Assembly (NCBI GenBank): GCA_016278725.1
Contig: JADQBG010000006.1
Span: 1 to 64,000 of the forward strand
Direction: 5' to 3'
DNA length: 64,000 bases
From: Actinomycetota bacterium
Lineage (GTDB): Bacteria > Actinomycetota > Thermoleophilia > RBG-16-64-13
In this document: positions 45,907 through 62,866 of the stretch, piece after piece
Position numbering within the stretch: position 1 is the first letter of the stretch
Layout: every line of letters begins with the position of its first letter
The notes under the pieces: generated by a model
The model's input: the letters and a program-made list of their open reading frames with translations, nothing else
The model's database searches: none
Told to the model about the DNA's origin: nothing
Program-made: the position numbers and the translations under genes

Positions 45907-45924
45907 GATAGGTCATGGGGGTAT
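45907..45924 (-). promoter_or_regulatory. operator-like motif ATACCCC-N4-ACCTATC upstream of copA
   Basis: + strand GATAGGT CATG GGGGTAT, immediately before extended -10 TGCTATTTT (45926-45934); see shared-motif finding. Confidence 0.6.
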
Positions 45925-52452: not shown

Positions 52453-52477
52453 GCCGCCGGCGAGAACGGTTGAGCGG

Positions 52478-52495
52478 ATACCCCGCGTCCCTATG
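52478..52495 (+). promoter_or_regulatory. operator-like motif ATACCCC-N4-CCCTATG upstream of 20-codon ORF
   Basis: ATACCCC GCGT CCCTATG; extended -10 TGCTAGAAT at 52506-52514. Confidence 0.6.
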
Positions 52496-52555
52496 TGGGC
52501 GGGGCTGCTAGAATCCACTGAGGGAACAGTTTACGGACTGAAAGGAGGTAGCGGA

Positions 52556-52618
52556 GTGAAGCGTTTCATGATTCCTCGGACTGCTCACTGCAGCGAGGGC
52601 TGCATGGTGTGGTCCTGA
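52556..52618 (+). CDS. 20-codon microprotein MKRFMIPRTAHCSEGCMVWS (unannotated small ORF)
   Basis: AAAGGAGGT Shine-Dalgarno with 7-nt spacing to GTG start; promoter-like extended -10 upstream; operator-like motif overlapping the promoter. Confidence 0.5.
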   Translation: MKRFMIPRTAHCSEGCMVWS

Positions 52619-52639
52619 GCAAGACCTGAAACTGCTCGA

Positions 52640-52657
52640 GAACATTCCCCAATGTTC
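52640..52657. repeat. perfect 7-bp inverted repeat GAACATT-CCCC-AATGTTC
   Basis: intergenic, 22 bp after the 20-codon ORF. Confidence 0.8.
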
Positions 52658-52670
52658 GTGAGACTTCTCT

Positions 52671-52686
52671 TACCCTAGGGGGGTAT
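52671..52686. promoter_or_regulatory. CsoR-like palindromic operator TACCCTAGGGGGGTAT
   Basis: resembles the Bacillus copZA CsoR operator (TACCCTACGGGGGTAT as I recall it). Confidence 0.45.
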
Positions 52687-52794: not shown

Positions 52795-53058
52795 ATGCAC
52801 CAACATGCAACCGTCCCCCAGGCCGTCACCCTGACCGAACGTTGTCCTGCACTTGAGCAGTGTCCGGTGCTGGTTGAGTTGCGCCTCGTGAGCGAACCCG
52901 AAACTTCACCGCTCCCCACCGCATTCGCGGCGCCACGGGGCTTCATTCCCGAAGCTCCCATTGATTCAGCGCGGTCCGCTGCTCCCGGCGCCTCGGCCGG
53001 ACTGCTTTCCGAGCTCAAATCCCGTGGTTTCCGCGCTCCCCAGGGATTCCTGCCCTAG
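52795..53058 (+). CDS. 87-aa hypothetical protein with N-terminal MHQH, two Cys and duplicated AP[RQ]GF[IL]P motif
   Basis: RBS-like AAAGGAGCAGGC before ATG; MHQHATVPQAVTLTERCPALEQCPVL...AFAAPRGFIP...GFRAPQGFLP. Confidence 0.5.
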   Translation: MHQHATVPQAVTLTERCPALEQCPVLVELRLVSEPETSPLPTAFAAPRGFIPEAPIDSARSAAPGASAGLLSELKSRGFRAPQGFLP

Positions 53059-60288: not shown

Positions 60289-61710
60289 TTAGTGGCATAT
60301 CACCAGGAAGTGTTCCGGCTCCTGCACAAACCGGAGCCGGCAGGCTTCCGAGCAGAAGTAGTACGCCGAACCATCGTAGGTGGCCCTGGGGGCAGAGGAA
60401 ACGTCGGTCAGGGTCATTCCGCAAACCGGGTCGCGGTGAACACCCGCCGGTGTGAGGTCGCACCGGAGTGGCCGCTGGCGGACCAGATCCCCGATGAGGG
60501 AGAGCTCATTGAGGAGCATGCGTGGCAGCAGGAAGTGCTCGCGCACGCGCTCTTGACCCCGGGCCGCCATCTCCGCCGCCGCTTCGGGTTCCTCGAACAG
60601 CCTGACGATCGCCCGGGCGCACCCTTCGATGTCGTCGACCAGAAACCCGCCAACCCCATCGGCCATCTGCAGGGGAATACCGCCCGCCCGTCCGGCGACC
60701 ACCGGCGTTCCCTTCCACAGGGCCTCGGACACCACTAGGCCAAAGCCCTCCCGAACGGACTTCTGCACGATCACCTGAGAAAGACGCTGGAAGGCGTTCA
60801 CCTCGATGTTGCCCACCCCGGTAAGGTTGCTGAAGACGTGAATGAGGGGATCGGCCTCGCTCTGCTCCTGGATCTGACGGTAGACGTCCCACCCTTCGGG
60901 ATCGTCCAGGGCCATGGACCCTGCCAGGGCCAACTGCAGACCGGGGACGTCTTCCCGGGCGATCCGGTACGCGGCGATCACCCCGAGGGGGTCCTTCCAC
61001 GGATCGAAGCGGGCGATCTGTGTCATGAGCGGGCGATCGGGACACACGCCTATCCAATCGAGAACCTGCTGCGCCGTGGCTGGGGCCAGGGGTAGGTTCT
61101 TGGGGCTAACGGGGTCGATGGCAGGCGGGATGATCTCCACCCGATCGACGGGGAAGTTGGGCGGGACGAATTGCTCCATGGTGAACACGGCCGCGTCGTA
61201 TTCGCTGAGTTGACGGCTCAGGAAATCCCAGACTTCCGGGTTAGGCTGCGAGGTGTCGATGTGGCATCGCCAGACCCAGCGCGCATCCCCCTTGCCGTGG
61301 AACGGCAGGATCCCGAGCGGCTGCGGGTCGTGCAGGAATACCACGTCGAACTCTTCCTCGAGGAGTTCGGCGTTGCGGGCAGAGGCCGCGAGAAAGGCAT
61401 CGCGTTCGGCCTTCTCGAGCCCACGCTCTGCTCCCTGCAGGGCGTTGTGGATAGTCTTGGTGACGGAGAAGAAGTCGTCCTCGGCGGTGATGACCTTCCA
61501 GTCGGCAATGAGCCCCAGGTCATTCGTCAGAGGAACCAGCGAGCGCAGGAGTTCGGAGACCCCTCCCCCGTAGGGGGTGGCGTTGACATGCAGGACCCGC
61601 ACCCCTTGCAGGTCCCTCGCGGATTCGGTGAGTTTGTCGAGGAGCTCATCCGGCGCAATTCTGCGATAACTGGACAGCGAACGGCGGCCGACGTCGACAT
61701 TGGTGAGCAT
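60289..61710 (-). CDS. GT4 glycosyltransferase (TreT-like) with C-terminal YHS domain
   Basis: [74 protein letters not shown]-terminal [44 protein letters not shown]. Confidence 0.88.
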
Positions 61711-62455: not shown

Positions 62456-62473
62456 ATACCCCCGCACCCTATG
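62456..62473 (+). promoter_or_regulatory. operator-like motif ATACCCC-N4-CCCTATG upstream of the methyltransferase/TreT-YHS pair
   Basis: ATACCCC CGCA CCCTATG; reading minus strand it is followed by TATTAT -10-like sequence. Confidence 0.6.
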
Positions 62474-62599: not shown

Positions 62600-62866
62600 A
62601 TGTCTGTATCCCTACCGCGAGCCCTGTCTGTCTTGGCTCTGGCTCTGATTCTTGTTGCGGCGATGTCCGCGGCCGCGCTGGCAGCTCCTCCGCCCGAGGG
62701 CTTCGGGCAGACCGTGGCAGACAACGCCCAAGGCGTCGGCCTGGCGGACCCGGAATTCGGCAATCACGTCTCGGGTATAGCTCGGCCCGGTGGCCCGCAT
62801 GACCTAGGTACCGAGCACAACCCCGGCATGCATCAAGGCATCGCGGGCTGGCACGGGGGTATGTAG
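62600..62866 (+). CDS. small secreted protein (88 aa, His/Gly-rich tail)
   Basis: signal peptide-like LSVLALALILVAAMSAAALAAPPP; tail HNPGMHQGIAGWHGGM; RBS-like AAGGAGAGC. Confidence 0.65.
   Translation: MSVSLPRALSVLALALILVAAMSAAALAAPPPEGFGQTVADNAQGVGLADPEFGNHVSGIARPGGPHDLGTEHNPGMHQGIAGWHGGM

Follow-up and report, generated by a model that had tools for sequence, protein, structure and literature searches.

Bacterial metallothioneins and the CsoR/RicR-regulated MymT are small, metal-induced, Cys-containing peptides of at least 50 residues, with many more Cys residues than the peptide considered here, and the H-type pseudoknots that stimulate frameshifting or readthrough lie 5-9 nucleotides (nt) 3' of a defined codon. 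Two described systems link copper to a small Cys-containing reading frame. CruR, a DUF2946 protein (Bordetella pertussis bp2923), combines a CXXC motif with a C-terminal RAPP arrest motif about 45 residues apart (PMC9426467), and CutF of Rhodobacter capsulatus is exported by Sec and has a proline-rich, stalling C terminus, with a stem-loop that masks the Shine-Dalgarno (SD) sequence of cutO (PMC9973294). Here we describe a small open reading frame (smORF) of 20 codons from an Actinomycetota bacterium of the class Thermoleophilia (assembly GCA_016278725.1). The window analysed comprises 64,000 nt, positions 1 to 64,000 of contig JADQBG010000006.1. Its conservation pattern indicates that the smORF is a real, conserved and translated gene. 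Judged by the homologous loci, it is a member of a family of metal-linked peptides, 17-26 residues long and apparently undescribed, that occurs in at least nine bacterial phyla.

A DNA search in 60 relatives gave matches in the sister species and in other genera, with a conserved block that begins at the GTG start codon and two copies in several genomes. When 399 genomes of the class were searched with a pattern, the smORF appeared in the window's own family only (6 genomes). With one genome per species, at least 118 stretches match the IUPAC pattern F-x-[IVM]-P-[RS]-x-[AS]-H-C-x-[DE]-G, for which we estimate a chance expectation of a few from the pattern information, and nearly all of them are free-standing micro-ORFs of 17-26 codons behind a strong SD sequence. 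Since this pattern fixes some residues by construction, unbiased searches were added. A covariance model (R1; 111 positions, built from 88 loci) yielded best E-values down to approximately 1e-28 and matched 28/150 Actinomycetota genomes, 49/59 genomes of one deltaproteobacterial class, 5/60 of another and 13/61 Bacillota genomes; 34 carrier genomes contain 1-3 copies each. The model also retrieved the divergent subfamily II (M-L-R-K-R-[YW]-M-L-R-A-V-A-H-C-x-E-G-C), a divergent actinobacterial family with the peptide ...MLRAVAHCCEGK, and a divergent subfamily III (MRRTFPHATHCSTCGSSILS-like). Its matches at L199, L200, L201 and L202 were set aside as unconvincing, and two tail-end matches as well as those resting on the 3' part alone, without the peptide, were excluded from the family. 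According to record titles, the carriers, almost all of them metagenome-assembled genomes, are Actinomycetota (including Acidimicrobiia, Thermoleophilia and Solincola/Geothermincola), several deltaproteobacterial groups, Zixibacteria, Aminicenantes/Acidobacteria, Bacillota, Patescibacteria, Chloroflexi, Myxococcota, Gemmatimonadota, Nitrospirota and Methylomirabilota. Across the homologous loci, the first two codon positions are conserved, and the third is close to maximal entropy.

An H-type pseudoknot with the consensus GTC-CY-GGGCA-N-GAC-NNNAAAC-TGCCC was found in 99/117 loci. In the 88 aligned loci, 97.3% of cells are paired, compared to 28-46% in slid control versions of the structure, and 41 cells have changed on both sides versus 6.7 +/- 2.2 in shuffles, none of 500 of which reached 41. 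Stem 1 (S1) occurs as GTC/GAC, ATC/GAT or GCC/GGC, and the AAAC of the loop is conserved in sequence. A reciprocal search, in which the pseudoknot sequence served as the only query against 120 Bacillota genomes, gave 21 matches in 17 genomes (reversed-pattern control, 0), and 18 of the 20 matches inspected have a micro-ORF directly upstream. The 17 peptide-blind loci so obtained, a near-identical pair being counted once, carry the His, the first Cys and the Gly in 17/17 cases each and either Cys (12) or His (5) as second ligand, with mean entropies of 0.65, 0.58 and 1.48 bits at codon positions 1, 2 and 3. Because this set, free of selection for the peptide, exhibits the same pattern, there is strong sequence support for translation of the ORF and for peptide and pseudoknot belonging together.

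The two elements are also held in register. The codon of the second ligand and the pseudoknot are separated by 8 nt at all 99 pseudoknot loci; this scoring tested offset 8 only, and none of the 18 failures, on inspection, had a pseudoknot at a different offset. Of the 18 cases in the pseudoknot-first set, 14 have an offset of exactly 8, the remainder having 9, 12 or a local duplication. Lineages that lack the pseudoknot mostly carry a hairpin at a similar distance. At loci without a pseudoknot, the first GC-rich perfect stem, a measure that replaced the uninformative largest minimum-free-energy hairpin, starts 7-8 nt after the same codon in 9/21, against a shuffled expectation of 0.47 and a maximum of 4 in 1000 shuffles; several of these hairpin loci belong to related Geothermincola-type genomes, and Patescibacteria and others show the same offset. 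The stop codon varies in position (codon 13, 15, 17, 19 or 21 counted from F), and codons 17-19 are unconstrained in sequence and held in length across phyla. As the stop wanders while the codon-structure spacing stays, the distance is set from the codon and not from the stop. Given the known geometry of the ribosome, a ribosome decoding the second-ligand codon would meet the structure.

The core motif of the family is aromatic-x-hydrophobic-[P/L]-R-x-A-H-C-x-x-G-[C/H]. Among the 117 loci, wherever HC is followed by a residue other than Cys, the residue after G is Cys (98) or His (14); in 5/5 HCC loci it is Ala, Ser or Asn. An actinobacterial HCC + K family has undergone the same ligand swap independently, and L243/L244 have a C-x2-C arrangement. 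This pattern is the one expected of a paired soft-metal or dithiol site and does not specify the metal; the exchange of Cys and His makes the peptide a candidate metal binder, possibly a metallothionein-type buffer. The conserved block comprises the 13-15 residues that lead up to the presumed pause codon; beyond it, conservation is low.

The elements of the locus in the window are collected in Table 1. An earlier note, made from the letters of the window, had claimed an unannotated 20-residue Cys/Met/His micropeptide with its own promoter and operator and a strong ribosome-binding site. The GTG start at 52556 and the product are present as it described, the extended -10 element and the box common to copA lie where it placed them, and the coding assignment is borne out by homologues across phyla and by the codon-position pattern. 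A comparable purine-rich SD sequence precedes nearly all homologous micro-ORFs. In the window, the gap from the SD sequence to the GTG measures 6 nt instead of the 7 nt given. The C-x3-C motif of the note holds for the window peptide, but in the family it is one of several arrangements (C-x3-C, C-x3-H, C-C and C-x2-C). The note mentioned neither the pseudoknot nor the spread across phyla. An Rfam scan of the window returned tRNA only, with no family at gathering score for the smORF locus.

Table 1. Sequence elements of the smORF locus in the window.
Feature	Position	Strand	Description
CsoR-type operator (predicted)	52478-52494	+	ATACCCCGCGTCCCTAT; exact copy in copA promoter
Extended -10 promoter element (predicted)	52506-52514	+	TGCTAGAAT; 3' of operator
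SD sequence	52541-52549	+	AAAGGAGGT; 6 nt gap to GTG
smORF	52556-52618	+	GTG start, 20 codons and TGA at 52616-52618; product VKRFMIPRTAHCSEGCMVWS
Candidate ligands of peptide	52601-52603 (C16 codon)		H11, C12, C16
Spacer, C16 codon to pseudoknot	52604-52611	+	8 nt
H-type pseudoknot	52612-52637	+	Overlaps TGA stop of smORF
Pseudoknot S1	52612-52614 / 52623-52625		GTC / GAC
Pseudoknot stem 2 (S2)	52617-52621 / 52633-52637		GAGCA / TGCTC
Pseudoknot loops			CT, A, CTGAAAC
Hairpin (fold prediction)	52640-52657	+	GAACATT-CCCC-AATGTTC; right after pseudoknot; terminator-like, T tract weak

Besides the copA promoter (45908-45924, minus strand), exact copies of the operator are located at 62456-62472 and on contig C9 of the same genome, and a box with one mismatch lies 42 bp upstream of a csoR-family gene (C1:109746-109988, csoR/copZ), whose product carries the C-H-C copper triad. 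The smORF thus has an operator in common with the csoR/copZ and copA genes of its own genome, as a member of the CsoR regulon would, and may be induced by copper. With one mismatch allowed, matches to the box pattern equal those to its reversed control; weight is therefore placed on the exact promoter matches and the csoR site. Orthologous boxes occur upstream of L004, L010 and L094. Within 400 bp of the micro-ORF, an ArsR gene is present in 13/116 loci (1 more at 400-1500 bp, 6 beyond), and CopA, MerA and Spy/CpxP-like genes in 8, 5 and 8 of the 116, respectively. In the actinobacterial family L186-L197, ArsR is directly upstream in 6/7 readable loci, and L255/L256 have a MerR-family regulator in this position. 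The nearest upstream ORF is on the same strand in 89/114 loci, the usual place of the unit being last in a same-strand operon. Downstream ORFs are of varied families and lie on the plus strand in 68 cases and on the minus strand in 48.

Based on these observations, we propose that the smORF encodes a dithiol peptide that is induced by metal, acts in trans and probably binds Cu(I) or another thiophilic metal, with a built-in ribosome roadblock, a reading that we regard as an even call. The locus would then be a one-gene, copper-induced unit in which (i) Cu(I) relieves repression by CsoR, giving rise to a mini-mRNA of about 130-150 nt; (ii) this mini-mRNA is translated into a cytosolic 20-residue peptide with the core F-x-I-P-R-x-A-H-C-x-x-G-C, in which C12 and C16, probably together with H11, would form a paired soft-metal site; (iii) the pseudoknot, which begins 8 nt 3' of the C16 codon, would sit where the mRNA enters the ribosome while C16 is decoded, so that the ribosome would pause as the metal site is completed; and (iv) the finished peptide would most likely bind Cu(I), or, in lineages where arsR or merA precedes the unit, other thiophilic metals, and may serve as a small chaperone, a buffer or a regulator ligand. 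Action in trans is suggested by the downstream genes, which have no fixed orientation or identity, and a classical leader role is unlikely, given the lack of a constant gene 3' of the unit and the frequent presence of a terminator-like hairpin after it. Several findings weigh against this proposal. A free metal-binding peptide alone explains neither the fixed distance between codon and pseudoknot nor the strict conservation of non-ligand residues. L228 (NCSDGA) and L239 (HCSDGA) have no second ligand, L185 and L204 have no His, and two Bacillota pseudoknots (L259 and L274) have no micro-ORF. A CsoR-like box is recognisable in only 6/111 upstream regions, and many loci have no metal gene nearby, for instance those behind geranylgeranyl-reductase-like enzymes that use flavin adenine dinucleotide (FAD); metal control is therefore supported by sequence for a minority of loci.

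The main rival is a nascent-chain sensor, which accounts better than a peptide acting in trans for the fixed register and for conservation throughout the nascent segment. In such a sensor, metal on the nascent dithiol, or its loss, would set the length of a ribosome stall together with the pseudoknot, the stall would control stability or termination of its own mRNA or of a co-transcribed upstream one (arsR, merA, copA), and the finished peptide would be a by-product. The 13-15 conserved residues precede the presumed pause codon as in arrest peptides, the spacing between codon 16 and the roadblock is kept while the stop wanders and is about the same with a hairpin, the unit is mostly the last of its operon, and in CruR and CutF there are earlier examples of a nascent Cys motif that senses copper (PMC9426467, PMC9973294). 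If so, the family might represent a new class of translation-coupled soft-metal sensor, in which a nascent dithiol and a register-locked pseudoknot or hairpin jointly decide pausing and mRNA fate. We nevertheless consider this possibility doubtful, as the downstream target is inconsistent, the unit in the window possesses a promoter of its own and stands behind cysK, nascent regulators known so far stand at the heads of operons, and the pseudoknot sometimes occurs without the ORF.

The pseudoknot might instead stabilise the 3' end of a very short mRNA or aid its termination, with the peptide alone being functional and the spacing resulting from the compactness of the gene. Hairpins are indeed interchangeable with the pseudoknot, some of them being plain terminators (L051, L095, L107 and L122), and the two pseudoknots without an ORF would also fit. 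Yet a separate terminator-like hairpin follows the pseudoknot in 28/96 homologous loci, versus 2/96 in a control stretch, codons 17-19 are free in sequence but fixed in length with the distance counted from codon 16 and not from the stop, and the loop AAAC is conserved in sequence, all of which makes this explanation clearly unlikely.

Among the functions suggested in the earlier note, that of a metal-linked peptide probably stands, whereas the precursor of a ribosomally synthesised and post-translationally modified peptide (RiPP) and the Cys leader of cysK lack support. Short length, Cys content, strong conservation and multiple copies would suit a RiPP precursor, a signal or a small toxin, but neighbour clustering and Pfam tallies revealed no recurring maturase, exporter, protease or immunity gene, the core is conserved up to the N terminus in place of a leader with a variable core, and there is no hydrophobic segment, so that we give such a role very little credence. 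A Cys-responsive attenuator, for which the two Cys codons and the cysK gene that directly precedes the unit, both here and in the sister genome, could be cited, is hardly credible and in its usual form ruled out by the position of cysK and by the ligand exchange: this gene is upstream, not downstream, and has a 3' end of its own, downstream genes differ between loci, homologues follow copA, merA, arsR and other genes, the Cys codons are too few, and the second Cys freely gives way to His or moves to form HCC.

Three further candidates were rejected. Selenocysteine insertion (a SECIS element), considered since the TGA overlaps the stem-loop, does not agree with homologues that have TGA, TGG, CGA, CGG or CAA, with other stops following. 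Against frameshifting or readthrough, no X-XXY-YYZ site was found by inspection at codons 15-16, stops fall at varying places 5' of the pseudoknot and within it, and no frame is conserved downstream, the sequence 3' of the pseudoknot not being conserved across loci. The Rfam families anti-hemB and SorX matched L030 below threshold, aligned mainly on the terminator.

Some individual loci and neighbouring genes deserve mention. L274, at the same place as L257, has its pseudoknot just 3' of a CsoR-like box between copper genes, an arrangement which hints that the RNA module may act alone. Tandem full or partial pseudoknot copies follow one micro-ORF at L031, L187, L196, L197 and L264, and L181 consists of two micro-ORF and pseudoknot units in direct tandem, 114 nt apart, whose peptides differ. 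Plasmid and phage records gave no tblastn match, the 24-residue query being weak; L140 and L141 are micro-ORF copies on two IMG/VR contigs (viral by catalogue label only), and in L140 a terminator hairpin ends the unit 7 nt after the second-ligand codon. By eye, an Lgt-like (prolipoprotein diacylglyceryl transferase) gene lies by the micro-ORF at L261, L262, L268, L272, L273, L073 and L135, which belong to Bacillota and the window's own family. Downstream of the smORF, an 87-residue ORF (MHQHATVPQAVTLTERCPALEQCPVL..., 52795-53058, plus strand) has 72% identity in the sister genome (L003) and no Pfam match; with the CsoR-like palindrome TACCCTAGGGGGGTA ahead of it at 52671-52685, it is possibly another copper-regulated small protein. 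The exact box at 62456-62472 precedes a predicted secreted, His/Met-containing protein of 88 residues (62600-62866, plus strand), and a glycosyltransferase-like ORF at 60289-61710 (minus strand; by eye of trehalose-synthase type) ends in a YHS-like Cys motif (DPVCGMTL...), an unusual fusion.

The earlier note had put the peptide forward as a candidate for something undescribed, and its family was absent from the resources compared. Pfam contains no family, DUF2946 included, that matches the consensus peptides at E <=10 or the window peptide at E <=1, the small-protein families of NCBIfam gave no hidden Markov model match at E <=10, and six homologous loci gave sub-threshold matches only in Rfam. 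Searches with the peptide and pseudoknot strings found no paper in the literature covered, which excluded bioRxiv and most subscription papers, and topic searches returned CruR/CutF-type work only. Peptide family and pseudoknot are thus apparently undescribed in Pfam, NCBIfam, Rfam and this literature, RNA and smORF catalogues being outside the comparison. A gene for 17-26 residues falls well below the size that most gene callers keep, which may explain its absence from the family libraries searched, and the 111-position covariance model can be used to annotate the family across genomes. The position of the pseudoknot, tied to a codon and not to the stop, links paired Cys/His chemistry to ribosome position. 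If metal binding or pausing proves true, this would be either the smallest peptide family for metal handling that is widely conserved or a ribosome-based metal sensor of a new kind.

Compared with the described systems, the smORF resembles CruR as a small, copper-linked ORF with a paired-Cys motif, for which regulation through the nascent chain has been proposed (PMC9426467), and CutF as a small ORF with a CxxxC copper motif and an mRNA structure close to its 3' side, for which coupling of translation to RNA structure has been proposed (PMC9973294). In contrast to CruR, the family has 17-26 residues, no signal peptide, no RAPP motif and no fixed downstream gene, and it possesses a conserved pseudoknot; unlike CutF, the homologues have no Sec signal, no proline-rich C terminus and in general no masked SD sequence. 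CruR and CutF also head operons and regulate the next gene, whereas the ORFs downstream of the smORF are varied and lie on both strands. Both systems show that a nascent Cys motif can sense copper, but their defining features are not shared by the smORF. With recoding pseudoknots it has in common an H-type structure at a set distance, without their slippery heptamer or a conserved downstream frame. From metallothioneins and MymT, finally, the family is set apart by two Cys/His ligands plus a His, by strict conservation of non-ligand residues and by its pseudoknot.
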